Of a DNA stretch of 64,000 nt, positions 868-18,773 are shown piece by piece. The DNA lies in the NCBI GenBank assembly GCA_903916595.1, contig CAIWXI010000050.1:1-64000 (forward strand). The letters are read 5' to 3'. The position numbers and the translations under genes are program-made. Position 1 is the stretch's first letter; every line of letters starts with the position of its first letter. This DNA comes from an uncultured Bacteroidales bacterium. Lineage in GTDB: Bacteria; Bacteroidota; Bacteroidia; Bacteroidales; FEN-979. Below the pieces are notes generated by a model. That model was not told where the DNA came from. It saw only the letters and a program-made list of their open reading frames with translations, and searched no databases.

Positions 868-932
868 TCAACATTGAATTTTGAATTTATTGTTCCGTTC
901 AACATTCTATATTCAATATTCGATATTCATTA
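868..932. repeat. AT-rich degenerate repeat of attcaatattc type
   Basis: The stretch is a run of near-copies of (t)attcaa/cat(a)ttc and related strings, ending at the stop codon of the minus-strand radical SAM gene. I see no open frame and no clear hairpin-plus-T-tract terminator. Taken with the tandem repeats, the whole of 673-929 is repeat sequence without a gene. Confidence 0.5.
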
Positions 933-2270
933 TATGACATCAACGCCTTTCTTAATAAGCCAAAGACTCCCAACTCGTTCGTGGAATTTTTCATACGAAA
1001 GCCGGGTCTTCATCACCGAGTTGAAAAAGTTATATTTACGGTAGTCGTGATCGGTGATCTGATGTTTCACCTGGCTGTAGAACACCGTGCCGGGCATCGG
1101 GGTGAGTATGGTATAACCCGCGTAAACCACGGGATTGCTTGCAGAATATTCTTCCAGCGCTTTAAAATCATCTTCTGAATAATCGTTGGGGATAACGTAA
1201 TTTCCGCGGATCATGATGTCATTGTCGTTAAACACCCTGATCGCTTCTGCAATATCGCTGGCCGGGGAATCTTTACGGTATTTCTTCAACTCCTCATCTC
1301 GGTACGATTCAAATCCGCAGATCACGATCTTCAGTCCGCCTTTCGCCATCTTACGGATGATTCCGGGATGTTTTGCCGCTACATCGGCCCGGATGTCCAT
1401 AACAAAGGTTTTGCTGATCCCTTCTTCAAGTATCCGGTCGAAAAGAGTATTCATAAAACCCAGGTCAACCACTGAATTGGCATCTGCAAAGCGTACTACC
1501 GGATAATCGGGAATTGACTGCAGCTCGGCGATCAGGCTTTCGACTGTTCGCTGGTAGTACTTTCCTTTGAACTGGGGCCAGATGGAGCAAAAGGTACATT
1601 TATACGGACAGCCCAGGGAGGTGAACACATAGGTGCTGGGAAAGGGATTTCCTCCTACTTTGTAGGTGTCTATCCATCGTTTCAGAGGTTCTCTGTCGGG
1701 CATGAGATAACCGGCATTGGCCGCATCGCAGGAAGGAGGCTTGCCGGCGGTACGTTTCAATTCCTTTCCGGTGTTCAGTAAAATACCCGGCACCGATGCC
1801 AGGGAGGCTTTATGTTCCAGCGCTTCCACTACATTCCTGAAAATATGCGCGCTTTGCCCCGGGCAGACCACATCCACCGAAGGGTGAAAACAATCGTAAG
1901 GAAGCAAGGTAGGATGCAGTCCGCCAAGTACAGTAACAATACGGGGATCAGTATTTTTTACTTCCTGAAAAATCTCCCAGGCAAAATACAACTCAGATGT
2001 AATAGCTGTAGTTCCTGCCACATCGGGCCTAAACTCGCTCACCAGCCTGTGTACAAGGCTTGAAAGCGAGGGATGATCAGGCTTCAGGTCAAACTCCCCT
2101 TTGGTGTCGAACAGCAGTACCTCATGATCTTTCAGAGCTGCTGCAACGGTCATCAGACCAAGCGGAGGACCGATAAGTCTCCTGTGAATAAAAGGCCTGG
2201 CTGCATCAGGGGCGAATTCAAGTATTCTGTTCTCTGGGGAGCGAGGGGTATTGATAAGAAGAATTTTCAC
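930..2270 (-). CDS. B12-binding-type radical SAM protein
   Basis: This 446-residue protein has an N-terminal Rossmann-like half (about 1-150) of the cobalamin-binding type, but no DxHxxG motif is visible. A radical SAM core follows, with the [4Fe-4S] ligands Cys221, Cys225 and Cys228 (CPYKCTFC). The layout matches the BchE/HpnP-like class, whose members methylate, cyclise or oxidise unactivated carbons using S-adenosylmethionine. The start is GTG at 2270, because an in-frame TGA lies two codons upstream. The gene is divergent from the GT2-DUF2062 gene, with the promoter region between them. Its location at the edge of the acyl-carrier-protein cluster suggests tailoring of that product; the exact reaction cannot be told from sequence. 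Confidence 0.85.
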   Translation of the reverse strand: MKILLINTPRSPENRILEFAPDAARPFIHRRLIGPPLGLMTVAAALKDHEVLLFDTKGEFDLKPDHPSLSSLVHRLVSEFRPDVAGTTAITSELYFAWEIFQEVKNTDPRIVTVLGGLHPTLLPYDCFHPSVDVVCPGQSAHIFRNVVEALEHKASLASVPGILLNTGKELKRTAGKPPSCDAANAGYLMPDREPLKRWIDTYKVGGNPFPSTYVFTSLGCPYKCTFCSIWPQFKGKYYQRTVESLIAELQSIPDYPVVRFADANSVVDLGFMNTLFDRILEEGISKTFVMDIRADVAAKHPGIIRKMAKGGLKIVICGFESYRDEELKKYRKDSPASDIAEAIRVFNDNDIMIRGNYVIPNDYSEDDFKALEEYSASNPVVYAGYTILTPMPGTVFYSQVKHQITDHDYRKYNFFNSVMKTRLSYEKFHERVGSLWLIKKGVDVI

Positions 2271-6500: not shown

Positions 6501-7393
6501 ATTTAGACCTCGACATACTGCCCTTGATGATGTTCGGAACCGGTGAATTTCTTGAACGCGGAGATTTCTGGGGAAGGCCTAACGGCTTCAGGCAAAAGAT
6601 CTTTAAAAGGATCACTGCGGATGACATTTCGTTTGGTACAACCTATCAGGAGAGGTCAAAAGCCATCCGCAGATACTATATACTTGAATATGAACGTTTC
6701 CGTGCCGAAGAAGGCAATGCTTCCCATTACCGGCGGCTGCTCAGCCTGAATTATATTTATAAAGGCCCTCTGCTGGAATGGTATATGAGGATCAAACTGA
6801 GGCTTGAACAGAATTATCAGCTTTTGAATGAGCATGTCCCCCGGCAGGGCGATATACTGGATCTGGGCTGTGGATATGGCATTGTAAGCTATATGCTGGC
6901 TCTCACATCCATCCACAGAAACATTACCGGCATTGATTTTGACAATGAAAAAATCAGGGTTGCTGATGGCGGATTCCTGAAATCGCCACGGATAAATTTT
7001 ATTACTGCCGATATCATGACCTTTGACTTTTTGCCGAAAGACTGTATTATTCTGAGCGATGTACTTCATTATATTCAGCCTGCTGACCAGGAACAGCTGT
7101 TAGTGAAATGTATGTCAAACCTGAGACCGGGAGGAATGATATTAATCCGCGATGCCGATGAAAGCCGGGCTGGACATCATTCCCGTGCAAGGCTTACCGA
7201 ATGGTTCTCTACCGGCATGAAGTTTAACAAGACCAGTGAGGAGACAGCCAGACTGCATTTTCTTTCAACGGCCGGTTTAGAACGGATTGCTTTGGCAGCA
7301 GGGTTCAGCCTGGAAATCATCGGTTCCAAAACCTATAGTTCAAACACGTATTATCTTCTGAAAAGAAAATCCCCGACAGCTCTGAAAGCATGA
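3524..7393 (+). CDS. MMPL/RND-type lipid exporter fused to acyltransferase and SAM methyltransferase
   Basis: This 1289-residue protein starts at ATG 3524, 1 bp after the previous stop; an earlier in-frame start would overlap the upstream gene by 86 bp. Residues about 1-840 form a two-fold MMPL/RND permease: each half has a large periplasmic loop and several membrane segments, including GIGSVILGLIIDYSLYLIN and IFGLGVDYSILMM, with the conserved GxxxDY motifs. Residues about 890-1060 are a PlsC/LPLAT acyltransferase with NHQSLIE (His903, Glu908) and FPEAHRS from residue 969. The canonical HX4D is HX4E here. Residues about 1095-1240 are a class I methyltransferase with DLGCGYG (1113-1119). MMPL proteins export lipids, so the fusion couples acyl transfer and methylation to export. 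It overlaps the next gene by ATGA. Confidence 0.9.
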   Translation: MSTLFIYIYTLFQKRRWLFYLILAACFLFIIPGLKKIRFVEDITGTSSKRAKKNLFEHVVNNFRFAERLVITISCEETSGACTEDSLCLTADSLAEAIETGCKEYISKMFYKPDDSLFPQLMSCTGEYLPLFLEEGDYRRIDTITSAVNIEKAIRKDYRQLLTPASAAIRKQLLSDPLGIQGLALKKLQTLQGSEQYESYNGYILSKDHRRLLMFITPSNPPGETRKNGEFLKKLDQILDQKVNSQKGLRAEYFGAAAVAVGNAERLKKDIMLTVLIAFLAIFLLLGLYFRSALVPLFGLLPAVFGGGLAIAILAMVKGSVSAIALGIGSVILGLIIDYSLYLINQYRKCGDVKQTLREMSQSIVVCAITSAGAFLCLVFLESSVLHDLGWFASLSVAGASLFALVFLPQMFSERFREKRPSKFSVFIDRIGSIQFEKNIPLLIALTLLCLASLFFFRKAGFETDMNTLNYMQPGLREAGKNLDSLSSGNLKNIYVVATGENREEALRLNEHIQSRLDLLYKSGTVAGVSGIRTLLLSDSLTMRRLDTWKTYFLPQKQQDLSREVDQAASATGFTAGAFSGFGKMMAKPYGPMPDSLKSKLGQALFSEWLNEQTSMVMITCIAKVKPVNIAKVYHEFSMMPGVVVFDRQKLTDLFVQSVRRDFDRLVLLSMLFVSLLLWFAFGRIELALFTAVPMYLSWLITLGFMGATGIRFNIFNIIISSFIFGLGVDYSILMMRGFMQDYKYGTQNISSYRVSILLSSATTLFGVAALFTAKHPALSSIALISVFGILVLVLITLSIQPMIAGWFMGDRLRKRTFPITARIFVKTMITWFNIVFIAMILTVMGTLIYYLLPVRRKWKENAFHRMFCGLSRFYIFLSLPDRSLCNRYGEDFKKPAVIISNHQSLIETPALLRLYPKIIILTRTWVHDSIVFGPIARLASFYNVDQGLDAIMDKLREKVSQGYSILVFPEAHRSKDQSIQRFHRGAFYLAQHLDLDILPLMMFGTGEFLERGDFWGRPNGFRQKIFKRITADDISFGTTYQERSKAIRRYYILEYERFRAEEGNASHYRRLLSLNYIYKGPLLEWYMRIKLRLEQNYQLLNEHVPRQGDILDLGCGYGIVSYMLALTSIHRNITGIDFDNEKIRVADGGFLKSPRINFITADIMTFDFLPKDCIILSDVLHYIQPADQEQLLVKCMSNLRPGGMILIRDADESRAGHHSRARLTEWFSTGMKFNKTSEETARLHFLSTAGLERIALAAGFSLEIIGSKTYSSNTYYLLKRKSPTALKA

Positions 7394-8889
7394 ACCGTTA
7401 TGACGTAATAATTATCGGATCGGGGCTTGGCAGCCTGCTATGTGGTTACATCCTGAGCAAGGAAGGCTTCAGCGTTTGTATTCTCGAGAAGCACTCTGTT
7501 ACAGGCGGTTGTTTGCAGAGTTTCAGAAGAGGGGACAACACCTTCGACACCGGCATTCATTATATCGGTAGTATGTTGCCGGACCAGACACTTCACTCCT
7601 ACTGGAAATATTTCGGTCTGTCACAAACACTGGATCTGGAACGTATGAATGGTGATGGCTTTGATGTGATCTCTATGGATGGCAGGGATTACAGGCTTGC
7701 CCAGGGTTTTGATAATTTCGTTGACCAGCTGGCCGTGGATTTTCCATCATCCGGCGATTTCCTGAAACTCTATGTCACAGCCATTAAAGATACCGTATCG
7801 GCCTTTCCTTTGTATAATTTTGAACTGACCGACAACCCGGCCAAAACTACCTGGATGGGAACCAATGCCTGGGATTTTATGAGTTCGCTGGCCGGTGACA
7901 GTGCAGAAAACCGAAGGTTGCTGGAAGTTCTTTCGGGAAATAATTTTTTATATGCCGGACGTAAATCATCTACCCCATGGCATCAGCTTGCCCTCATCAA
8001 CCATTCGTTTATAAGCAGTGCCTGGAGGCTGAAACAAGGCAGCATGCAAATTGCCGAACATCTCATTTCATCAATAACGGCCCATGGAGGCAGAGTCTTA
8101 ACCAGGACCGAAGTAAAAAAGATATCCCCTTTAAAAGACAAGTTCCAGGTCAGTGCCACGGGAGATGAGATGTTCGTTGCAAGCCGCATCATTGCAGGAA
8201 TTCATCCGCAATCAGCCATCAGCATACTTGAACCCTCCATAGTCAAACGGTCTTTCCACTCAAGGATCATGAGTATGGAAAATACGGTCTCATCGTTCGG
8301 ACTCTATCTCGGGCTGAAACCAGGCCGTTTTCCTTACCTTGATTATAACCTGTATTATCATGCCGGCAAGGATGCCTGGGCCGGCCCTAAATGCAAGGCA
8401 AATGAATGGCCCGGGATGTATTTCATGTATACTCCTGCCTCTGCAAAACAAGGGGATCATACAACGGCCCTTTGCATTTTATCATATATGCAATTCGATG
8501 AAGTAAAAAACTGGGAAAACACAGGCAAAGGAAAGCGTGGACTGGATTACACGGCGTTTAAAAATGAAAGGGCCGAAAAATTACTAACGCTTGTTGAACG
8601 AAAATTCCCGGAAATACGTTCTGTAATAAACTCCATGGAAATTTCAACTCCTCTCACCTGGTGCGATTATACCGGCACTCCCCAGGGTTCTATGTACGGG
8701 ATCAGGAAGGAATCGGGAAATTATCTGAAAACAATGATATTGCCACGTACCAAGATACCCGGTTTTTATTTTACAGGCCAGAACCTGAATTTGCATGGGG
8801 CTCCTGGCGTCACCATAAGCGCCATCATGACCTGCTCGGAAATACTGGGACTTGATTACTTGTTTAAAAAGATACGTGATGCACAATAG
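7390..8889 (+). CDS. CrtI/phytoene-desaturase-like FAD-dependent oxidoreductase
   Basis: This 499-residue protein begins with the dinucleotide-binding signature DVIIIGSGLGS, then an EKH segment and GGCLQSF. Its C-terminal FAD-contact region ends FYFTGQNLNLHGAPGV. This is the amine-oxidase/CrtI/retinol-saturase fold. Family members desaturate, isomerise or saturate polyene chains. No other carotenoid genes are present nearby, so a substrate from this cluster (an acyl or polyene chain) is more likely than phytoene. It overlaps the preceding gene by 4 bp (ATGA) and the following one by 11 bp, indicating translational coupling. Confidence 0.85.
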   Translation: MNRYDVIIIGSGLGSLLCGYILSKEGFSVCILEKHSVTGGCLQSFRRGDNTFDTGIHYIGSMLPDQTLHSYWKYFGLSQTLDLERMNGDGFDVISMDGRDYRLAQGFDNFVDQLAVDFPSSGDFLKLYVTAIKDTVSAFPLYNFELTDNPAKTTWMGTNAWDFMSSLAGDSAENRRLLEVLSGNNFLYAGRKSSTPWHQLALINHSFISSAWRLKQGSMQIAEHLISSITAHGGRVLTRTEVKKISPLKDKFQVSATGDEMFVASRIIAGIHPQSAISILEPSIVKRSFHSRIMSMENTVSSFGLYLGLKPGRFPYLDYNLYYHAGKDAWAGPKCKANEWPGMYFMYTPASAKQGDHTTALCILSYMQFDEVKNWENTGKGKRGLDYTAFKNERAEKLLTLVERKFPEIRSVINSMEISTPLTWCDYTGTPQGSMYGIRKESGNYLKTMILPRTKIPGFYFTGQNLNLHGAPGVTISAIMTCSEILGLDYLFKKIRDAQ

Positions 8890-10585
8890 CCGTCAACGAA
8901 AAAAAAACAGAATATGGATGGCCGTGTTCATCCTTGCAGCTATCATACTTAGTTTATGGGCATGGTTCCGAATCTCAATTAACATAAATCCACCCCGTAT
9001 TAAAGACCGTTCGGCCGACACCCTGCAGGTTTCCAGGCTTACATCCAGCTTCAGCCGCTGCGGACAATCATGGCTCAGTAAAGATACTTCAGGCCTCTGG
9101 CTGATGTACCTCAGGGGAAGCCCTTATGAACTTGGTGTTACTAACGGGAAGCTCGCCAGGTCTTTGATTTATGAGCAGGAGAAAGCCTTCGTGGGACAGA
9201 TCAGGAAAATGATCCCGTCTGAGTTCTATCTTCATTTTCTAAAGTACTTTATCTACTGGTTCAACCGTGATCTCGATAAATATGTTCCTTTGGAATATAA
9301 ACAGGAGATTTATGGAGTAAGCCGTTCGGCAAGTAAAGATTTCGCATTTATCGGCAGTAGTTACCAGCGGATGCTGAATTACCATTCGGCCCATGATATA
9401 GGCCACGCCATGGAGCAACTCAGCCTTGTAGGATGTACTTCCTTCGGGGCCTGGGGTAGATCAACCGAAGATTCGGGGCTTATCATAGGAAGAAACTTTG
9501 ATTTTTACATGGGTGATGAATTCGCCCGAAACAAGCTCATTTGCTTTGTACAGCCCGACAGTGGTCACGCCTTTATGATGGTGACCTGGGGCGGGATGAC
9601 AGGTGCCGTATCGGGGATGAATGATGAAGGACTTACCATTACTATCAATGCGGCCCGATCGGGAATACCCTGGTCGGCGCGAACTCCCGTCTCTATTCTG
9701 GCAAAGGAAATATTACAGTATGCTACAACGATTTACGAAGCCTATGCCATCGCCCAGAAACGTCACACCTTTGTTTCCGAATCCCTTCTGATTGGTTCGG
9801 CAAACGATGCCCATGCTGCTATAATAGAGAAATCTCCATACAAAATAGCGCTTCTGCAACCCAGGGGAACATTTGTTTTATGTGCCAACCATTTTCAGTC
9901 TGCAGAGTTTGCCAGAGATCCGCTGAACCGGGAAAACATCAGGGATAATGCCTCTTTGTACCGATTGACAAGGTTGCAGGAGGACATTGCCGGTAAGGTC
10001 CCTCTCACTGTCGGGAAAGCTGCGTGGATACTTAGAGACCAGGCCGGGCTTAAAGGCCGGGATATCGGTATGGGAAATGAAAAAGCAATGAACCAGCTTA
10101 TCGCCCACCATTCAATTATCTTCAAGCCCTCTGAACGTCTTGTCTGGGTATCGACAGGCCCCTGGCAACTAGGAGAATACAAATGCTTCGACCTGAAAAA
10201 AATTTTTCATACTTTTGCAGTCTCTGGTCAGGGGGTGGAGATTGTAGAAAAAACAAAAGCAATACCTCCCGACATCTTCCTGGAATCAGCCGGATACAAG
10301 GCTTTTCTTGAATTCAGGGGGATGAGAAGGATCGTTCAGGCTTGTATTAACGATGGCAGGAAACTGCCCGGTGAAAGTTCTTTTATTCTTTCATTTATTC
10401 ATTCGAACCCGAAGTTCTATGAAACCTGGTTTCTTACAGCAGAATATTATTATATGCTCGGAAAACATAGCATGGCCAGCTCATATTATTACCGGGCTCT
10501 CAAATGTGAAGTGCCCAGAAGGCAGGAAAAACAGAGAATTATCAGGCGTATTGCCGAATGTAAAGCCAGATTACAACAACATTAA
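8879..10585 (+). CDS. C45-family autoproteolytic acyltransferase/hydrolase, membrane anchored
   Basis: The 568-residue protein starts at ATG 8879, overlapping the previous stop; longer starts use ATT and are not credible. A hydrophobic segment at about residues 13-31 acts as signal anchor. The Ntn-hydrolase nucleophile is Cys186 in LVGCTSFGAWG, followed by GRNFDFYMGDE. This is the pattern of the acyl-CoA:6-aminopenicillanate acyltransferase / linear amide C-N hydrolase family, which self-cleaves before Cys and then makes or breaks amide bonds. The last roughly 100 residues, after the hydrolase domain, look helical and TPR-like (YYYMLGKHSMASSYYYRAL). The anchor suggests that it acts in the periplasm, perhaps trimming an acyl group from the exported product. 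Confidence 0.85.
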   Translation: MHNSRQRKKNRIWMAVFILAAIILSLWAWFRISININPPRIKDRSADTLQVSRLTSSFSRCGQSWLSKDTSGLWLMYLRGSPYELGVTNGKLARSLIYEQEKAFVGQIRKMIPSEFYLHFLKYFIYWFNRDLDKYVPLEYKQEIYGVSRSASKDFAFIGSSYQRMLNYHSAHDIGHAMEQLSLVGCTSFGAWGRSTEDSGLIIGRNFDFYMGDEFARNKLICFVQPDSGHAFMMVTWGGMTGAVSGMNDEGLTITINAARSGIPWSARTPVSILAKEILQYATTIYEAYAIAQKRHTFVSESLLIGSANDAHAAIIEKSPYKIALLQPRGTFVLCANHFQSAEFARDPLNRENIRDNASLYRLTRLQEDIAGKVPLTVGKAAWILRDQAGLKGRDIGMGNEKAMNQLIAHHSIIFKPSERLVWVSTGPWQLGEYKCFDLKKIFHTFAVSGQGVEIVEKTKAIPPDIFLESAGYKAFLEFRGMRRIVQACINDGRKLPGESSFILSFIHSNPKFYETWFLTAEYYYMLGKHSMASSYYYRALKCEVPRRQEKQRIIRRIAECKARLQQH

Positions 10586-10613
10586 CTGTCTTGCTAAGAC
10601 AAAACAATGACCA

Positions 10614-11885
10614 ATGAAATTCAAACTTATATATCCCCGTTGGCAGAAGCTCGAAGGACAAACTATTTTCAACCTTCCTCCCCATGGCCCTGTGGTCATG
10701 GCAGCAGCTCTGCCCGAACATGTTGAGATCGATTTTACCGACGAGAACGTAGAAGATCTTATTATTGACGATTCCGCCGATCTTGTCGGCATTTCCATGA
10801 TGCTCACTACTCAGGTGAAACGCGGATGGGAAATTGCCGACCAGTACCGTGCCCTGGGTAAAAAAGTCATCTTTGGTGGTATTTCCACTATGCTGCATGC
10901 AGAAGAAACCATGCTGCATGCCGATTCGGTCTTTTTAGGCGAAGTGGAAGGCCGGATGGAACAGGTGTTTGCGGACTTTCATAAGAATGACATGAAAAAA
11001 GTCTACAACTTCCTCTCCAAGCCTCCCGATCTGAACCTGGTGGGGCCTGCAAACAGAAGCATCCTGAAGAAAGACCTGTATTACCATAAAGGCTTCAGAA
11101 TGGTCGACCTGTTCCATGCTTCCCGCGGCTGTATCTACGACTGCTATCCCTGTGCGGTGAGGTATCTCGGGGGCCGTGGTTTCCGTCCCCGCCCCATCGA
11201 CCGGGTTGTTGAGGAACTCTCAGGGATGGATAACAACCGGCTGTTCATCGTCGACAATTCGCTGGCACTTGATACACAGTGGGAGAAAGATCTTTTCAAG
11301 GCTATGATCCCGCTTAAAAAGAAGTGGGTAAGTCATACCATAGAAGATAAAAATGAAGTGCTTGACCTTGCAGCCCAGGCCGGTGCGTGGTATGTATACC
11401 AGGCTGTGTTCGATACCTCAGATTATATCCGCAACCGCGTGAAGCAATACCACGATTACGGGATTGCCGTGGAAGGAACTATACTGCTCGGCCTCGACAA
11501 TCAGACCGAAGACGATATCAAGCGGCTGATCGACTTCCTGCTCGAAATCGACCTCGACCTTGCCGAGTTCACTGTACTTGCTCCCTTCCCTCATACCAAA
11601 GCATACAGCGACTTGCTCAAACAGAACAGGATCTTCGATAAGGACTGGAATCATTATAACGCCGGCAAGGTGGTATATTATCCCAAACATATGACCCCCG
11701 AACGACTTGGCGAACTCTTCCAGTATGCGTGGGATACTTTCTACAAAGATGAACCACAGACCATGAAGATGTTCAACCTCATCAACAAAGTCATGTCAAG
11801 AGAACTCGCCGACGGAACCTACACACCCCGCCGCCGCGACATCGCCAACCTCAGCTTTGGCAAAAAAATAACAGACAATGCATAA
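10614..11885 (+). CDS. Second B12-binding-type radical SAM protein
   Basis: This 423-residue protein has an N-terminal cobalamin-domain-like region (about 1-140, with PPHGPVVMAAALP and GGISTMLHAEE) and a radical SAM core with Cys173, Cys177 and Cys180 (CIYDCYPC). The downstream RPRPIDRVVEEL is typical of the BchE-like class. It is not a close duplicate of the radical SAM protein at 930-2270: the cluster-binding loops and N-termini differ. A 15-nt perfect inverted repeat, TGTCTT-GCT-AAGACA (10587-10601), lies between the previous stop and this ATG and might form a small hairpin. An 8-bp repeat array begins at its stop codon. The reaction is unknown; C-methylation, ring formation or oxidation of the acyl chain are options. 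Confidence 0.85.
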   Translation: MKFKLIYPRWQKLEGQTIFNLPPHGPVVMAAALPEHVEIDFTDENVEDLIIDDSADLVGISMMLTTQVKRGWEIADQYRALGKKVIFGGISTMLHAEETMLHADSVFLGEVEGRMEQVFADFHKNDMKKVYNFLSKPPDLNLVGPANRSILKKDLYYHKGFRMVDLFHASRGCIYDCYPCAVRYLGGRGFRPRPIDRVVEELSGMDNNRLFIVDNSLALDTQWEKDLFKAMIPLKKKWVSHTIEDKNEVLDLAAQAGAWYVYQAVFDTSDYIRNRVKQYHDYGIAVEGTILLGLDNQTEDDIKRLIDFLLEIDLDLAEFTVLAPFPHTKAYSDLLKQNRIFDKDWNHYNAGKVVYYPKHMTPERLGELFQYAWDTFYKDEPQTMKMFNLINKVMSRELADGTYTPRRRDIANLSFGKKITDNA

Positions 11886-11948
11886 TTTCGCCATTTCACC
11901 ATTTCGCCATTTCACTATTTCGCCATTTCACCATTTCACCATTTAATC
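11885..11948 (+). repeat. Eight perfect-length copies of an 8-bp repeat ending at a start codon
   Basis: Units are atttcgcc / atttcacc / atttcgcc / atttcact / atttcgcc / atttcacc / atttcacc / atttaatc, each exactly 8 bp. The first unit shares the last base of the upstream stop codon, and the last ends directly before ATG 11949. The array therefore occupies the whole intergenic gap and the ribosome-binding region of the downstream gene. Copy-number change by slippage would alter spacing or leader length without changing protein sequence. Confidence 0.9.
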
Positions 11949-12335
11949 ATGGATACCAACCCCGCCCTCAACAGATACATGGACCGTTACTTTGACTATC
12001 CCGGCCATTGGGACAGTCCTTCGAAATGCGGACTGAAGCTGGCAACGAGGAAAGACGGGAAAATACTGGCCATTGCGACAGAGATTTACCGTCAGAACCC
12101 CGGAACCCCGGTCACCGAAGTAGTCGCATCCCTGGCAACACGGGTCATGAAGGCAAGCGGGGCTGCCTACGTGAATTTTATTTTCATCGAACATACCCCC
12201 GACCTCGGCAGTAAACTTACTTTTTACGGTGAAACCTTCGACCAGGTTGATTTTGATCACCAGGACGGGATATTGTCAAACCCGGTATGGACACGTCTTA
12301 GCAGAGAACAGGTCGACCAGATGATGGAAGAGTAA
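11949..12335 (+). CDS. Conserved-looking small protein of unknown function
   Basis: I do not recognise this 128-residue soluble protein. It has no signal peptide or membrane segment. Visible features are an acidic, aromatic N-terminus (YMDRYFDYPGHWD), a central alpha/beta-like stretch (DGKILAIATEIYRQNP, VVASLATRVMKASGAAYVNFIFIEH) and a C-terminal helix. No metal-binding or nucleotide-binding motif stands out. It lies between the second radical SAM gene and the TonB receptor on the same strand, so it is most likely part of the same transcript. Its translation start is preceded only by the 8-bp repeat array. A role as accessory or partner to the radical SAM enzyme is conceivable, but nothing in the sequence proves it. 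Confidence 0.55.
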   Translation: MDTNPALNRYMDRYFDYPGHWDSPSKCGLKLATRKDGKILAIATEIYRQNPGTPVTEVVASLATRVMKASGAAYVNFIFIEHTPDLGSKLTFYGETFDQVDFDHQDGILSNPVWTRLSREQVDQMMEE

Positions 12336-12354
12336 AATCTCCTATCTTTACAGC

Positions 12355-14745
12355 ATGCCCGGCCCTCTACAACGTTTATTCCCTGTTGCCCTGCTTGTCT
12401 GTTTTTTTCTTTTACTCTCTGCGGATGAGGGAGCGGCTCAGCCCATCCTCAGGTCTTCTGTAAAAGGTATCGTGCTTGATGCAGCTTCTCTGGAACCACT
12501 TGTAGGAGCCAGCGTTCAGTTGATTGGTGCCGATCCCCCCCTGGCCTGCTCATCGGATGAAGCAGGCCGGTTCCGGCTCAAAGGCGTACCCATCGGAAGT
12601 GCCCGGCTGCAAGTGAGCTTTATCGGGTATGCTACCGTTATCTCAGAACCTCTGGTTATAAGTAGTGCGAAAGAAGCCGACCTGACCATATATCTGAAAC
12701 AAACCGGCATCACAGGAAAAGAAGTAGAGGTGAAAGGTGATTACCAAAAGGGAGAGACCCTCAACCGTATGGCCTCAGTGAGTGTCAGGCCATTCAGTGT
12801 GGATGAAACCTTCAGGTACCCGGGCACATACAACGACCCGGCCCGGATGGCCCAGAACTTTGCCGGCGTGACCTCAGGCACCGATAACCGCAACGATATT
12901 ATCGTAAGGGGAAACTCCCCTTCCGGACTTCAATGGAGGCTGGACGATATGGAAATCCCTAATCCCAACCATTTTGCAGCTATGGGGACTACCGGAGGAC
13001 CGGTAACTATCCTCAACGACAACCTGATGACCAATTCAGACTTTCTTACAGGTTCCTTTCCTGCTCAGTATGGCAACACCACTGCCGGCGTATTTGACCT
13101 GAGGATGAAGACAGGCAACAGCGACCATCATGAGTTCTGGTTCGGGATGGGCTGGAACGGACTGGAGTTCGGCTCTGAAGGACCGTTTTCAAAAAAAAGC
13201 GCTGCCTCTTACATGTTCTCATACAGAATATCAATCATGCAGCTGCTGAACTATGCCGGGGTAAAAATGGACGTGGTGCCTCAGTACCAGGACTTCAGTA
13301 TGAAAATAAGCCTGCCAGCAAAGAAGGCCGGGATCTTCACCATCACCGGGATGGGGGGAATGAGCTATATCCAGCTTTTCCAGAGCCGCCGGCCAGCTTC
13401 CGACTGGATGTTCCCCGACTATGGAGAAGACCTTGCCAACGGCTCTAACCTGGGAGTTCTGGGACTCACTCATCAGGCCGCCTTAAAACCCGGATTGAGA
13501 ATCAAAACCATGCTCTATGCCGTGGGTTCGCTGGTTTATACCAGGGCCGACACCTTTTCAAATGTGGCTACAACACCTGCCTTATGGGCCGGTGAACGCA
13601 GCTCCGAAATAAAACTCTCTTTCTCATCGAGAATATTTAAAAAATTCTCCGAAAAAACCTCCCTCGAGGCAGGGATCAGCTACGACCATTTTTTTATGCA
13701 CTTTGCCGACAGCATGATGTATAAAAGTACATTCCAGGTGCATACCGGAACAAAAGAGCAGATGGATTTCCTGAGGGCATACACCCAGGTGCTGCAAAGC
13801 CTTTCGCCTTCGTTTGACCTGAAAGCGGGCATCTGCGGATCATGGCTTCCGATGAACGCTTCATGGGCTCTGGAACCCAGAATAGGCCTTGACTGGCGGA
13901 TTTCGGAACATCATGCCCTGGCATTCGGAGCCGGGATGTACAGCCAGATGCCGCCTCATGTAATGTATTTCATTATTAACCGTTTGCCGGGGGGCGTTAT
14001 TTTTGAACCCAACCGCGACATGGATTTCATCCGCTCGGCCCAAAGCGCCCTTTCCTACGATTTCAAACCAACAGAAAAACTTCATTTCAAAACAGAGATC
14101 TATTACCAGTTCCTGTACAATCTCCCGGTCAAAGCTTCGATCCCCCAGTATTCGCTGATCAATGAAGGGCATGACTTCTTTCTGAACAGGCAATACTCCG
14201 ACAGCCTGGTCAGTACCGGCACCGGCTCCAATTACGGCGTGGAACTCACTTTCGAACGGTATTACAGCAAGCAGTATTATTTCCTGTTCACAGCAACGGT
14301 GTTCAATTCAAACTATTCCGCATACGATAGAATTACAAGGAATTCGGCATTTAGTGTGAATTATGTATTGAACGCCGTAGGCGGATATGATTTCACTATA
14401 GGGAAACGCAAGTGGGGCATCCTCTCGCTTGGGTTGAGGGCTACCTATGCAGGCGGCAATCCATACGTGCCATATGATGTTAACGCCACAGTGGCAAACG
14501 GGGAGAGCATGATGGACTGGCCTGCCTCCTTCGATGTGAGATACCCTGATTATAAACGTGCATCGCTTAGGTTTGGATTAAAACGAAACCTGCCCGGATA
14601 TAACATCGAGTTCATCCTTGACCTGCAGTACAGGACAAACTATACTAACGTCTACCTTCAACGGATCGATCCGAAAACCGGCGAGATCCGGACTTTTTTC
14701 AATATGGGCTTTTTTCCCATGGCGACATGGAGAATACAGTTTTAA
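12355..14745 (+). CDS. TonB-dependent receptor with carboxypeptidase-like regulatory domain
   Basis: This 796-residue outer-membrane protein has a signal peptide (about 1-29, ending GAAQ). A CarboxypepD_reg-like domain follows at about 36-115 (VKGIVLDAASLEPLVGASV, AGRFRLKGVPIG). A plug domain follows (IIVRGNSPSGLQWRLDDMEIPNPNHF, PAQYGNTTAGVFDLRMKTG), then a long beta-barrel ending in the aromatic ATWRIQF. Such proteins move large or hydrophobic substrates across the outer membrane using TonB energy. The gene sits inside the biosynthetic run, 19 bp after the preceding stop, so it probably handles the cluster product or a precursor. A TATCTTTA near-match to the -7 consensus at 12343-12350 could give extra, nearly leaderless transcription. 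Confidence 0.9.
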   Translation: MPGPLQRLFPVALLVCFFLLLSADEGAAQPILRSSVKGIVLDAASLEPLVGASVQLIGADPPLACSSDEAGRFRLKGVPIGSARLQVSFIGYATVISEPLVISSAKEADLTIYLKQTGITGKEVEVKGDYQKGETLNRMASVSVRPFSVDETFRYPGTYNDPARMAQNFAGVTSGTDNRNDIIVRGNSPSGLQWRLDDMEIPNPNHFAAMGTTGGPVTILNDNLMTNSDFLTGSFPAQYGNTTAGVFDLRMKTGNSDHHEFWFGMGWNGLEFGSEGPFSKKSAASYMFSYRISIMQLLNYAGVKMDVVPQYQDFSMKISLPAKKAGIFTITGMGGMSYIQLFQSRRPASDWMFPDYGEDLANGSNLGVLGLTHQAALKPGLRIKTMLYAVGSLVYTRADTFSNVATTPALWAGERSSEIKLSFSSRIFKKFSEKTSLEAGISYDHFFMHFADSMMYKSTFQVHTGTKEQMDFLRAYTQVLQSLSPSFDLKAGICGSWLPMNASWALEPRIGLDWRISEHHALAFGAGMYSQMPPHVMYFIINRLPGGVIFEPNRDMDFIRSAQSALSYDFKPTEKLHFKTEIYYQFLYNLPVKASIPQYSLINEGHDFFLNRQYSDSLVSTGTGSNYGVELTFERYYSKQYYFLFTATVFNSNYSAYDRITRNSAFSVNYVLNAVGGYDFTIGKRKWGILSLGLRATYAGGNPYVPYDVNATVANGESMMDWPASFDVRYPDYKRASLRFGLKRNLPGYNIEFILDLQYRTNYTNVYLQRIDPKTGEIRTFFNMGFFPMATWRIQF

Positions 14746-14756
14746 AAAGAATACCT

Positions 14757-15848
14757 ATGAACCCGAATCAAAAATTTCCACCCTATACTGTAGTGCATAC
14801 ACTTGGCGGCATCAGAGGTTTGCTTCTGAAACTTCACAGGAAGCTGTTCCCGGGTTCCGTGGTTTTGTACGAGCAGTTTCAGTCGTTCTGGCTGATGCAG
14901 CCCCTTTATATTGCCGCTGAGCTTGACATTGCCGGGTTATTGAAGGACAAACCACTGAGCGTTGAAGCGCTGGCCGCAAAATCCGATTCACAGCCGGAAC
15001 CTCTGTACCGGGTGCTCAGGGCGCTTTCATCGGAAGGCATTTTCAGGGAAACGGAAGGAAGACGGTTTAAGCTGAACTCCAGGTCCAGGGCTCTTCTTGA
15101 AGGCGATGGGAGTATGAGACACATGATCATTCACCATCTGGGAAAGATAAACTGGGAAGCCTTTGGCAATTTGATGCATACCGTGAGGACAGGCCAAAAT
15201 GCTTTCACCGGACTGCATGGCACAGACGTCTATCCATTTCTTAAGCAAAATCCTGAAGAACTGGGGCGTTTCGAGAAGTCCATGACAGAACTCTCAGCTC
15301 TTTCGTCAGGCCCCATTCTTGCACGCTACGACTTCTCAAAGCACAAAACCGTGGCAGATATAGGAGGAGGCGAAGGATTGTTATTGAAAGAAATCCTGCA
15401 GAAACACCCGGGACTTAAGGGAATACTGTTCGACCTTCCGGGAACATCAGCTAAAGCTGCAGAACAGATCAGAGTTTCGTGCCTTGACCGGCGTATAAGC
15501 TTTTTATCCGGTAGCTTTCTTGAACCTTTCAGGCTTGAAGCCGATCTCTATCTGATGAAAAATGTGCTACATAACTGGGATGATGCGCATTGCTCCTCCA
15601 TTCTGACAAATCTCCGTACGACCATGCCAGAAGGCTCAACGGTTCTGATCCTCGAGATGGCCGTTCCTGGCCCCAACATGGCCTCCTGGTCCAAGCTGGT
15701 TGATATGCAGATGCTCGCTACCATGCCAGGTGGCAGGGAAAGAACCATAGAGGAATATGAGTCCCTTCTGAAAAAGTCAGGATTCAGTCTCAAGCGTACC
15801 ATCCCCACAATCTCACCCCTGTCTATCCTCGAAACAGTCGGAGAATAA
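14757..15848 (+). CDS. O-methyltransferase (COMT / hydroxyneurosporene methyltransferase family)
   Basis: This 363-residue protein starts at ATG 14757, 11 bp after the receptor stop; an alternative ATG at 14727 overlaps the receptor by 19 bp and adds 10 residues. The N-terminal part is a winged-helix dimerisation domain (LDIAGLLKDKPLSVEALA, LYRVLRALSSEGIF). The SAM-binding motif is DIGGGEG. The general-base region LMKNVLHNWDDAHC matches the K-x2-L-H-x-W-x-D signature of small-molecule O-methyltransferases, with the catalytic His present. It probably methylates a hydroxyl (phenol or enol) of the cluster product, which hints at an oxygenated, perhaps aromatic or polyketide, core. Confidence 0.85.
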   Translation: MNPNQKFPPYTVVHTLGGIRGLLLKLHRKLFPGSVVLYEQFQSFWLMQPLYIAAELDIAGLLKDKPLSVEALAAKSDSQPEPLYRVLRALSSEGIFRETEGRRFKLNSRSRALLEGDGSMRHMIIHHLGKINWEAFGNLMHTVRTGQNAFTGLHGTDVYPFLKQNPEELGRFEKSMTELSALSSGPILARYDFSKHKTVADIGGGEGLLLKEILQKHPGLKGILFDLPGTSAKAAEQIRVSCLDRRISFLSGSFLEPFRLEADLYLMKNVLHNWDDAHCSSILTNLRTTMPEGSTVLILEMAVPGPNMASWSKLVDMQMLATMPGGRERTIEEYESLLKKSGFSLKRTIPTISPLSILETVGE

Positions 15849-15850
15849 TT

Positions 15851-15858
15851 TACCTTTG
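15851..15858 (+). promoter_or_regulatory. -7 box TACCTTTG before the ABC permease gene
   Basis: The box is an exact TAnnTTTG match, ending 4 bp before ATG 15863. It could give a very short or leaderless transcript for the second half of the cluster. No TTTG partner is evident upstream, so this is a partial match. It disfavors the GTG at 15860 as start codon. Confidence 0.4.
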
Positions 15859-15862
15859 CGTG

Positions 15863-17053
15863 ATGAACAAGCTGTTGTTTTCGGCTAAAAAAGAGATCCT
15901 TATTATCGTTCGGGATATTCCCGGACTTATGATCCTTTTCATCATGCCTGTACTGCTGATGACGGTAGTCATTCTTGCCCAGGAATATACCCTTAAGAAC
16001 GAGTTGGGGAAAACCAGGCTTTTGTTCATCGACGACAGTCATTCAGGCTTTGCACGATCGCTGAAGCAGGATCTTACAGCCAGTGATTTTTTTGAGACCG
16101 ACAGCATGGCTGAAGGCGCCGTCATAACAAAAATAAAGGCCATTGAACTTATTAACAAAGGAAGATACCATCTGGGATTATATCTCGGCCCCCGTGATTC
16201 ATCGATAGAAATTATTTCAGACCCAGCTCTTTCAGGACCATACCGTTCAGGCCTGGTTGCTCCTCTCAAATACCTTGTCAAAGGAAGGCAAACCAGGAAC
16301 ATCATCGAAGAAATGCTCACCGTTTCTGCCGGTGACATGAAACCTATCATTGACAAAGCCATTGAGGAATCGGCCGGGAAATTGCCACAGATCAAGGAAT
16401 CCTTTGCAGGTTCAGAGAAGCAGGAGATCAGGCCTACTGCAATACAGAATATCGTGCCCGGGTTTATTCTGTTTGCCATGTTTTTTATTGTTATACCCCT
16501 TGCCGCAAGTATCATCAGCGAAAAAAATGAAGGCGCTTTTCAGCGGATCCGCACTCTTCCGGTGGGGTTCGGAATCATTCTCGGTTCTAAAGTGCTTGTT
16601 TATTTCGTGGTATGTCTCGTACAGTTTTTCCTGATGATGACGGTCGGTCTGTGGATTTTCCCTGTCTTTTTCGGGTTACCCCCTCTGGAGATCGGGAATA
16701 ATATTGCTGCCATTATGCTTGCAACATCTGCAGCCTCGCTTGCAGCAATAGGCTTTGGAGTGCTGGTCGGTTCTGCTTCAGCGACAATGGCACAGGCATC
16801 GCTGTTCGGATCGGTAATGGTAGTGCTTCTTGGAGTGATCAGCGGAACCTTTCTGCCGGTGCATGCGATGCCCGCGGCTTTACAGTATCTGAGCCTGATT
16901 TCTCCCATGCGGTGGGGCATTGAAAACTATCTTGATGTGTTTATCCGAGGGGGCGGGATAAAAGCTATTTTCCCAAGGAGTTTGTTGCTCATTGCCTTTT
17001 TCATTTTTGCAATGATCGTGAGTAGTTATATTTTTGCATTGAAAAAAAAATAA
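15863..17053 (+). CDS. ABC-2 type transporter permease
   Basis: This 396-residue integral membrane protein starts at ATG 15863, preferred over the adjacent GTG 15860. One N-terminal membrane helix (about 20-40) is followed by a large extracytoplasmic domain (about 45-185). Five further helices lie between about 195 and 395, with the ABC-2 signature region IISEKNEGAFQRIRTLPV. This is the layout of the YhgE/DrrB-like ABC2_membrane_3 class, whose members export drugs or lipids. No ATP-binding subunit occurs anywhere in the window, so the ATPase must be encoded to the left of the window or elsewhere. It is probably an export component for the cluster product. Confidence 0.85.
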   Translation: MNKLLFSAKKEILIIVRDIPGLMILFIMPVLLMTVVILAQEYTLKNELGKTRLLFIDDSHSGFARSLKQDLTASDFFETDSMAEGAVITKIKAIELINKGRYHLGLYLGPRDSSIEIISDPALSGPYRSGLVAPLKYLVKGRQTRNIIEEMLTVSAGDMKPIIDKAIEESAGKLPQIKESFAGSEKQEIRPTAIQNIVPGFILFAMFFIVIPLAASIISEKNEGAFQRIRTLPVGFGIILGSKVLVYFVVCLVQFFLMMTVGLWIFPVFFGLPPLEIGNNIAAIMLATSAASLAAIGFGVLVGSASATMAQASLFGSVMVVLLGVISGTFLPVHAMPAALQYLSLISPMRWGIENYLDVFIRGGGIKAIFPRSLLLIAFFIFAMIVSSYIFALKKK

Positions 17054-17071
17054 TCGTTATAAGGGGTTTCC

Positions 17072-17467
17072 ATGAAAGAAAAGGATGTATTAGCAGAATT
17101 CCCTGAGCAGCAGGTCATCGTGTATATCGAAAAAGAGGACGGGACGTATGATGCGATACAGACTGGTTCTTTTATTTCGGCCAATTATATCGACGATTTC
17201 TTCCTGAAGCGGAAAAACCTGGAAAAAGCATTGCAGGAAAAGATTGAAAAACGAGAGATCAACGCCATCGGATATTACATGATATATGAAGACCTTACTA
17301 TTTCGGAACTTGCTGCACGTATGGGCTTGATGAAATGGACTGTAAGAAAACATCTCAGACCAGACGGTTTCGGAAAGATCAGCGAGGCTGCACTGAAAAA
17401 ATATTCCATGGTTTTTAATGTCGCCTCTGAAGAAATTGTAAGCAGACAGTCAGGAAACAGAAAATAA
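17072..17467 (+). CDS. Small putative HTH protein next to the BtrH-like gene
   Basis: This 131-residue soluble protein has an N-terminal segment containing VIVYIEKEDGTYDAIQTGSF. A basic, charged helix lies in the middle, followed by a helix-turn-helix-like stretch, LTISELAARMGLMKWTVRKH (about residues 91-110). It may bind DNA or act as a small partner protein. It ends 4 bp before the BtrH-like gene, which implies cotranscription. If it is a regulator it would be the only dedicated one seen in the cluster. The family was not recognised. Confidence 0.55.
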   Translation: MKEKDVLAEFPEQQVIVYIEKEDGTYDAIQTGSFISANYIDDFFLKRKNLEKALQEKIEKREINAIGYYMIYEDLTISELAARMGLMKWTVRKHLRPDGFGKISEAALKKYSMVFNVASEEIVSRQSGNRK

Positions 17468-17471
17468 AGAA

Positions 17472-18479
17472 ATGATCATAGAGAACTATCAGCATAAAAT
17501 GGCCGCCCATTGTGAGTCGGGATCTATCACATCCTTACTTAACTACGCGGGGATGAAGATTACCGAACCTATGGTATTCGGAATCTCCAGCGGGATCTTT
17601 TTCGGCTATTTCCATGCCATGAAATCATTTGCATTCCCGACATTTATCGTCAGGAACAAACCGGGACAGATGAGGAAGAACATCGAGAAAAGGACCGGGG
17701 TAAAGTTTTACACTAAAGAATTCAAAAACCAGCTCAAAGGTCAGCAAGCCCTGGACCTTCTCATTTCAAAAGGGATTCCCTCAGCCGCTCAGGTCGACTT
17801 TTTTTACCTCGACTATGTGCCTTCATGGGAACGTGTTCATCTGAACGTGCATTTTATTGTTGTTATAGGCAAAGACGGAGATGTTTACAAGGTGAGTGAC
17901 AGCTATTTCCCGCACTTGGTCGATCTGCCTGCAGATTCGATGAACAAAGGCCGGTTTGCGCAGGGAAATATGTCACCTAAAGGGTTCATGTTTTATCCGG
18001 GTTTTGTCCCTGAGTCATTTAATTACGAAAAAGCCATCCGCAGAGGAATAAAAAAAGCATGTTTTAATATGCTTAGCATCCCAATTCCATTTCTCGGGAT
18101 CAAAGGCATCAGGCTGTTCGCAAAAAAAATCACAGATTGGCCTTCGATCGCAAGAGATACCGAACATCTCTCACATGAGGTAATGAAGATCAATATTTTG
18201 CTTGAAGACCAGGGAACCGGTGGGGCTGGATTCCGTTTTATGTATGCCACTTTCCTGCAGCAGGCTTCCGAGATCATCCATAAACCCGAACTTAAAGACC
18301 TGGCCAGGGAACTGATGGAAATCGGCGATGGCTGGAGGGAATTTTCTCTTTTCGCCGCCAAGCTCGGAAAAAACCGCGACCTTGGCCCGGAAAAATTTCA
18401 ACACCTGAGCAATCTGCTATATCAGAGAGCTGAGAAGGAAGAAGATTTTTTTAAACGCTTATCAAAAACTATCAAATAA
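17472..18479 (+). CDS. BtrH-like acyltransferase (BtrH N-terminal plus DUF4872-like domains)
   Basis: This 335-residue protein opens with the cysteine-protease-like BtrH_N pattern: Cys14 in HCESGS, His127 in VHFIVVIG and Asp143 in VSDSYFP make a plausible catalytic triad. The C-terminal half is helical, as in DUF4872 proteins. BtrH of butirosin biosynthesis moves an acyl group from an acyl carrier protein to an amine of the antibiotic. The ACP gene starts 9 bp downstream, so the same chemistry (ACP-bound acyl to an amine) is the natural inference. Together with the C45 hydrolase it provides both an amide-forming and a possible amide-cleaving activity. It is assigned by motif pattern and context. 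Confidence 0.75.
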   Translation: MIIENYQHKMAAHCESGSITSLLNYAGMKITEPMVFGISSGIFFGYFHAMKSFAFPTFIVRNKPGQMRKNIEKRTGVKFYTKEFKNQLKGQQALDLLISKGIPSAAQVDFFYLDYVPSWERVHLNVHFIVVIGKDGDVYKVSDSYFPHLVDLPADSMNKGRFAQGNMSPKGFMFYPGFVPESFNYEKAIRRGIKKACFNMLSIPIPFLGIKGIRLFAKKITDWPSIARDTEHLSHEVMKINILLEDQGTGGAGFRFMYATFLQQASEIIHKPELKDLARELMEIGDGWREFSLFAAKLGKNRDLGPEKFQHLSNLLYQRAEKEEDFFKRLSKTIK

Positions 18480-18488
18480 ACAGAATTA

Positions 18489-18773
18489 ATGAGCCAGATA
18501 GTAACGGAAGATTTGAGGACCGAGATCAAGAATCTCATCATGGAAACACTGGGAATAACAGGGATCAGGCCCGAAGAGATTGATAACGATAAACCATTAT
18601 TTGGAGGAGAGAACGCACTCACTCTCGATTCGGTGGATGCCCTGGAGATCATCATGGCCATACAGCGTAAATATGGTTTTAGGATAGCCGACCAGAACCT
18701 GGCCCGTACCGTGGTCCGTTCGATCAATTCGATAGCCGAATTTCTTGTTACTCAGCCCGGTAAACAGGCATAA
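18489..18773 (+). CDS. Acyl carrier protein
   Basis: This 94-residue acidic protein has the carrier-protein fold pattern. The phosphopantetheine attachment site is Ser48 in TLDSVDALEI, a close relative of the DSLD/E consensus. The following helix (IIMAIQRKYGFRI) and the IADQNLA...INSIAEFL segment match helices III and IV. It lies between the BtrH-like acyltransferase (9 bp) and the sulfotransferase. It should be primed by a phosphopantetheinyl transferase encoded elsewhere, charged by the AMP ligase or transacylase of the cluster, and unloaded by BtrH. It is clearly distinct from a housekeeping AcpP, which is normally shorter and has DSLD. Confidence 0.9.
   Translation: MSQIVTEDLRTEIKNLIMETLGITGIRPEEIDNDKPLFGGENALTLDSVDALEIIMAIQRKYGFRIADQNLARTVVRSINSIAEFLVTQPGKQA

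Follow-up and report, generated by a model that had tools for sequence, protein, structure and literature searches.

The octamer array before a 128-residue gene of an uncultured Bacteroidales bacterium belongs to a genome-wide family of intergenic repeats

Introduction

The systems closest to the one described here are heptamer arrays. Rehm et al. (2015) described GGGAATC and GGGGA(C/T)T heptamers in Xanthomonas and Nostoc and related them to quadruplexes; in the accessible parts of that paper the arrays are genome-wide, intergenic and present in many copies, overlap stop codons, form inverted pairs and vary in length among related species, with the G-rich strand in sense orientation after stops and in antisense before starts, nearer the 5' neighbouring ORF (PMC4692102). 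MacGregor (2015) described TAACTGA direct repeats in Beggiatoaceae, Cyanobacteria and some Bacteroidetes, for which translational control was proposed. As far as the openly available portion of that paper goes, these are short tandem heptamers in spacers with a patchy phylogeny, mostly upstream of starts (often directly before them) and with a single orientation within the main genome, and mixed with other heptamers in some Bacteroidetes (PMC4679880). A survey of long simple sequence repeats in prokaryotes found a heptamer-sized excess and proposed slippage (Mrazek et al. 2007, as related in parts of PMC4692102 and PMC4679880). Finally, the part of the DRT10 report considered here describes short tandem repeats in which an alignment segment matches the repeat's own end, the product being the cDNA of a defence system (PMC12632851). 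Within the literature searched, which was mostly without subscription papers, we found no octanucleotide or 8-bp tandem arrays of such a kind.

Here we analyse an octamer array of an uncultured Bacteroidales bacterium (the host), located in a stretch of 64,000 nucleotides (the window; positions 1 to 64,000 of contig CAIWXI010000050.1, assembly GCA_903916595.1). The arrays of this genome resemble the accessible description of the Xanthomonas and Nostoc heptamers (PMC4692102) in all the respects listed above, including the strand polarity, but are built of 8-mers and other 7-mers, most without GGG; read from its sequence, the unit GGTGAAAT has no GGG tract. They resemble the TAACTGA repeats, as described in the available text (PMC4679880), in being short tandem repeats in spacers with a patchy phylogeny and mixed units, but they lie mostly at stops, in both orientations and with other units, rather than mainly upstream of starts in one orientation. 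Beyond the excess reported and the slippage proposed in the survey as it is cited, border phase, polarity and unit replacement are addressed here. In contrast to the DRT10 product as reported, the arrays are chromosomal, in a genome without an RVT_1 match.

Results

The stretch between the two genes, positions 11885-11948, reads ATTTCGCC ATTTCACC ATTTCGCC ATTTCACT ATTTCGCC ATTTCACC ATTTCACC ATTTAATC and is followed by the ATG at 11949 (Table 1). A preliminary description counted eight 8-bp repeats here. The octamer array is real, but it has only seven units: the eighth, ATTTAATC, shares 6 of its 8 bases with ATTTCACC and conforms to the border that host-genome arrays usually have, after A[TC]TT, so we treat it as a border, and the full units stop 8 bp short of the ATG. 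At this border the array reads CACCATTTAATCATG. Units with GCC and ACC alternate in part, resulting in a 16-bp period; for 11885-11944, Tandem Repeats Finder (TRF) gives scores of 106 at period 16 and 92 at period 8. The same description stated that nothing else lies between the upstream stop and the ATG, which is borne out to the base: the upstream TAA (11883-11885) and the array overlap by a single base, the A that ends the one and opens the other, and therefore no other sequence separates the two genes.

The strand preceding the ATG is poor in G (3 per 64 bases), and its predicted folding is at most as stable as that of all 200 shuffled versions (z +2.4), consistent with an unstructured leader. 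Being G-poor and folding no better than shuffles, it should not hinder initiation. Neither a stable fold of the octamer array nor a partner arm for it was found, and a search for terminators in 11600-12500 returned none around the array. The same interval contains one sigma-70-like match per strand, two in total against 0.9 expected; were the match at 11857-11886 (10 of 12) genuine, the array would be part of a transcribed leader. Between 10500 and 12500 no known RNA family matched convincingly, the one microRNA model that scored (23.6 bits, with a gathering score of 100) being regarded as chance, and none matched in L032, L042 or L055.

Table 1. Features around the octamer array and elsewhere in the window.
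Feature	Position	Strand	Description
Upstream gene, 423 aa	10614..11885	+	B12-binding domain over the Pfam cut-off
Octamer array	11885..11940	+	Seven units ATTTC[A/G]C[C/T], unit 4 being ATTTCACT; from sequence and TRF
Array border ATTTAATC	11941..11948	+	Last ATTT followed by A, no full unit; abuts ATG
Downstream gene, 128 aa	11949..12335	+	Adjoins the same upstream gene in relatives
Next gene, 796 aa	12355..14745	+	N-terminal carboxypeptidase-regulatory-like domain
Degenerate heptamer array	898..933	.	TTCAATA/TTCGATA, between convergent genes; same general class

The 423-aa protein contains, in addition, a radical SAM-like part under the Pfam cut-off. Searches of Pfam and NCBIfam assigned no family to the 128-aa protein, which is present in 18 of the 31 genomes searched, the host included. 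The 796-aa protein appears to be receptor-like, and the 19-bp gap that separates its gene from the 128-aa gene carries no array. The surrounding region (7390-18773) may be a flexirubin/dialkylresorcinol-type gene cluster: it encodes a DarG-like protein (17072-17467; 64.5 bits, under the curated cut-off of 70) and also holds O-methyltransferase, acyltransferase-like and ABC transporter genes. Elsewhere in the window, positions 690-781 consist of a 38-bp unit in 2.4 tandem copies that, by eye, resembles a palindromic dispersed element of the ACACCGTAGCGGCGGTGT type found at other places in the host genome (C24:207-279 and the flank of C10:55919).

Taken genome-wide, the octamer is abundant. The double unit ATTTCRCCATTTCRCC has 805 exact matches in the host genome (3.79 Mb, 166 contigs), the reversed control has 0, and the triple unit ATTTCRCY has 694. 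The family unit can be written A[TC]TTC[AG]C[CT] and is accompanied by sister heptamer families; the GTACATC heptamer family is likewise expanded, with 524 triple units. Positional counts come from 689,897 non-N bases of the 3.79 Mb, taken from the one genome of the species in the analysis with simple ORF-based gene calls, and comprise contigs picked because the first listed matches lay there, the window and smaller contigs. Four contigs (C2, C8, C9 and C16; 7,483 bases) read N and are excluded from the polarity, border and array-estimate counts; elsewhere they count in the base totals and contribute no arrays. In this 690-kb sample 32 clusters carry 95 of the 694 triple-unit matches, which leads to an estimate of about 234 arrays of at least three units in the genome. 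Units of 7 or 8 nt predominate: TRF rows in 434 kb of host sequence number 35 at period 7 and 36 at period 8, compared with 1, 0 and 2 at periods 6, 9 and 10; longer periods are also present, for example 6 rows at period 12 and 10 at period 15. The host arrays are tandem repeats with units in the 5-11-nt range far above chance, and many different repeat units coexist in the genome.

The octamer arrays are mostly intergenic and occupy many loci, with 41 of 44 in called spacers of the 690 kb. They have 2-18 copies, nine of them three units and nine four, the Rehm-type heptamers being characterised by a preference for four. A stop codon lies within 8 bp of 29 of the 41 spacer arrays and a start within 12 bp of 9, the array studied here being in both counts. 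Arrays occur in 7 of 38 convergent, 26 of 196 co-directional and 4 of 69 divergent spacers.

Arrays seem to break the assembly. Nine whole, unmasked contigs have two of their 18 ends inside arrays, and in at least six others an array match begins no more than 25 bases from the start of the contig; these edge arrays consist of GTACATC or ATTTCACC (ends of C13 and C31; starts of C67, C97, C100, C119, C143 and C157). Since contigs begin and end inside arrays, the longest ones are probably missing from the assembly. As a separate observation, a dispersed element of about 75 bp (L055 1141-1216; C31:136141-136216 in the host) is flanked by octamer stretches; it has many host copies, and further copies are among the matches listed in six of seven congeners.

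Across the family, octamer triple units occur in 33 of 43 genomes, host counted. The host leads with its 694, followed by genomes with 176 and 159, and the seven congeners have 0-46 each. In a phylum sample of 395 genomes, which shows no family member besides the host, they occur in 3, host counted, with 1 and 4 matches in the other two. GTACATC triple units outside the host total 9, in 3 of the other 42 family genomes. The octamer expansion is lineage-specific. Two candidate causes were set aside. Loss of mutS1 does not apply, since all 8 genomes of the genus have the gene. SbcD has no match over the family cut-off in these 8 genomes (weak matches in 6), a lack that is possibly linked to a tolerance of inverted arrays; the pattern is common to the genus and does not set the host genome apart.

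The ends of the arrays have a preferred phase. In the reading direction of ATTTCACC, a stop after A[TC]TT is seen for 36 of 46 host runs, for 32 of 42 in the congener G004 and for 12 of 25 in G009 (the stretches of the latter two having been picked around matches), against an expected fraction of about 0.15. Of the 36 host runs that end in this way, 27 are followed by A, and at stop codons the border often reads TAA-AT-GGTGAAAT. The end of uvrA (UvrA by NCBIfam) has the same border although TTA is there a leucine codon, which indicates that stop codons alone do not produce it. In the host the uvrA frame enters the array and stops at a codon that the array supplies (L032 9986-10050), and by eye the stop is array-supplied in G004 and G007 too (L208, L211).

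The arrays are also oriented. Excluding 9 arrays within genes or far from them, ATTTCACC is directed to the nearer gene at a ratio of 30:10 in the host, and of 18:6 in G004 and 13:9 in G009, again from stretches picked around matches. For 7- and 8-mer arrays in general (stretches of ten genomes, nine of which gave arrays), the purine-rich strand starts on the side of the nearer gene and leads into the spacer at 98:27, a count that excludes 41 arrays placed in coding sequence by ORF-based calls; outside the host genome the ratio is 38:5. Array-less spacer edges are closer to balance (303:254), though they lean the same way between convergent (28:16) and divergent genes (105:75). The polarity holds in units without GGG or CCC (85:24), which argues that quadruplexes are not needed as a general cause, and in units without GG or CC (45:12).

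The preliminary description proposed that such arrays gain and lose units and suggested comparing the same gap in relatives. Between species the plasticity stands. Using the 128-aa protein we found 36 loci, 35 with the upstream gene on the contig (two from one MAG), and at these 35 the spacer ranges from 0 to 246 bp. It is near-absent in some relatives (3 and 0 bp), and many have no array or one with other units. By a shuffle test over periods 5-12, with a minimum score of 8 and p no greater than 0.01, 15 of the 35 spacers have a period of 7 or 8, of which a few may have passed by chance; period 9 is present in three, one of which also has period 8, and periods 5, 6 and 10-12 in none. The units include ATTTCGCT, CTCATCAG, GTTCACCC, CTGGATAA, TTTGAAC, CGTAAAT and others. 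In three relatives (L020, L023 and L119) this spacer is occupied by palindromes of the GGGGCGGGTTCCAAACCCGCCCCT type.

Further orthologous spacers were retrieved from congeners with three host stretches as queries and were chosen because the host carries arrays there. For seven length-variable array spacers of this set the relatives provide 36 versions, of which 26 show significant periodicity at 7 (17) or 8 (12), and periods 5, 12 and 13 appear once each. The repeat unit commonly changes from species to species at orthologous spacers within the genus. Short states, all of them in other species whose spacers have diverged, include C31:71445, where the 84 bp of the host correspond to 12 bp in G001, and the uvrA end, with 6 bp between anchors in G001.

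Many of the relatives' spacers contain an inverted pair with matching arms and spacer-specific units, such as GGATAACT/AGTTATCC in G006 and AAGTAGCG/CGCTACTT in G004. A general test of complementarity between left and right halves showed that array-less spacers likewise pair better than swapped ones, so only orthologous and same-genome comparisons were used. Over all 79 orthologous comparisons, pairing is -21.5 kcal/mol within and -17.0 between species (52 stronger). Split, after this result had been seen, into variable and other spacers, the seven array spacers give -22.9 within against -15.4 kcal/mol between species (28 of 37, p 6.5e-5) and the nine others -18.7 against -18.8, no difference. 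In relatives, a left half pairs better with its own right half than with right halves from other spacers in that genome (-25.0 against -16.9, 19 of 27, p 3e-4); in the host genome within-spacer pairing is not stronger (-15.6 against -23.0, 1 of 6). Flipping the right arm in relatives did not weaken pairing significantly (p 0.24; 0.09 with an eighth spacer). That eighth spacer, C31:136126, was excluded as its host version is mainly the dispersed element of about 75 bp; dropping it lowers the counts and leaves the relatives' result unchanged. The inverted-pair result belongs to the relatives, and the host is dominated by the dispersal of a few units.

These data bear most directly on an alternative in which the arrays are arms of intergenic hairpins, acting as terminators or transcript protectors, with selection holding the pairing of purine and pyrimidine strands but leaving the unit itself free to vary; the array studied here would be a lone arm or a decayed pair. 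The stronger pairing within species, confined to the array spacers, and within spacers in relatives would follow, as would the somewhat higher frequency of arrays between convergent genes. Against it stand the host result, the non-significant effect of the flipped arm, the complementarity of array-less spacers, the post hoc split and, at this locus, the missing partner arm and the lack of a terminator-like site nearby. We consider this alternative unlikely, if the foremost among the rivals.

Discussion

Our main reading, to which we assign a probability of roughly 0.6, is that the array belongs to a genome-wide set of fast-turnover intergenic repeats seeded by microhomology and affecting translation passively, and is not a dedicated regulator of the 128-aa gene. 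It builds on dispersal, border phase, polarity and unit replacement, all of which are shown by the data.

Mechanistically, an array would be born at a few bases rich in A and T (AAAT when the G-rich strand is read, for instance within the TAAAT at a stop codon), where a stalled nascent strand may re-anneal or switch template into a repeat. Slippage would then lengthen or shorten the array, and the same microhomology would copy arrays between loci. Coding sequence would restrict where arrays can end, and selection would remove orientations that place ATG or GTG before a start or that stay open past a stop. At 11885-11940 the array would act on the 128-aa gene only as a G-poor, unstructured spacer, with copy-number change mostly neutral. 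Both the copying mechanism and the neutrality we infer, and microhomology priming in particular we infer from a single line of evidence, the border phase. To this, selection on the borders could contribute, and only 12 of 25 borders in G009 fit. Plain slippage does not predict the relatives' inverted pairs with spacer-specific units. A point against the main reading itself is that the host expanded unrelated families simultaneously, for which no cause was found.

A variant that we hold to be unlikely is that gene borders in this family bear array hairpins that renew themselves: arrays of 7-8 nt would arise from AAAT-like seeds and be copied in inverted form, through fork or single-strand DNA repair with template switching and possibly by fold-back copying across the spacer. 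Both arms would then be replaced together between species, with polarity and pairing retained.

Translational control is less probable still. Here a protein such as S1, Csp or CsrA would bind the repeated motif in the leader, or the number of units would serve as a rheostat, much as the preliminary description envisaged for the 128-residue gene. The units end 8 bp before the ATG in a G-poor, unstructured leader, the sigma-70-like match would, if real, have it transcribed (bearing in mind that two matches were found for 0.9 expected), and control of translation is what the available text proposes for TAACTGA repeats upstream of starts (PMC4679880). Gene-specific tuning, however, sits poorly with a family present at some 234 places, whose arrays adjoin stops (29 of 41) more often than starts (9 of 41) and of whose 37 array-bearing spacers 7 are convergent, with no start to tune. 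Relatives, moreover, retain the gene pair where the spacer measures 0 or 3 bp, lacks an array or carries other motifs, and the unit sequence is unconserved even within the genus. A dedicated rheostat is therefore unsupported.

Dispersal, polarity and inverted pairs might also be the footprint of a REP/REPIN-like system in which a RAYT single-strand transposase spreads the arrays. REP units are palindromes of about 20-40 nt, unlike the tandem 7-8-mers and the non-palindromic 8-nt unit seen here. A crude scan for the Y1 motif [ML]P[NDE]H.H gave one match in 697 kb of host sequence (18% of the genome), in a 100-aa frame that does not resemble a transposase; the stretches from nine relatives had no match. 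We regard this explanation as very improbable. Least plausible of all is RNA-templated synthesis, in which octamers would be added to AAAT 3' ends by a telomerase-like or DRT10-like reverse transcriptase that carries a short template: primer alignment would give a border flanked by the AAAT of the unit itself, as is preferred here, but many different units coexist in one genome and PF00078 (RVT_1) has no match in the host genome (97.8% complete; control matches in 3 of 14 genomes), which disfavours it.

What looked like a gene switch thus moves into a class of bacterial intergenic repeats. The polarity and inverted pairing of quadruplex-type heptamers are seen here also with units that lack the usual G-tracts, and if self-renewing hairpins were to prove true, that process would also account for the polarity of the heptamers in Xanthomonas and Nostoc, with no need to invoke quadruplexes. 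The genus is well suited to comparison, its orthologous spacers having no array, one arm or two arms and units that differ between species, which makes the birth of arrays, the direction of their growth and any function directly testable.
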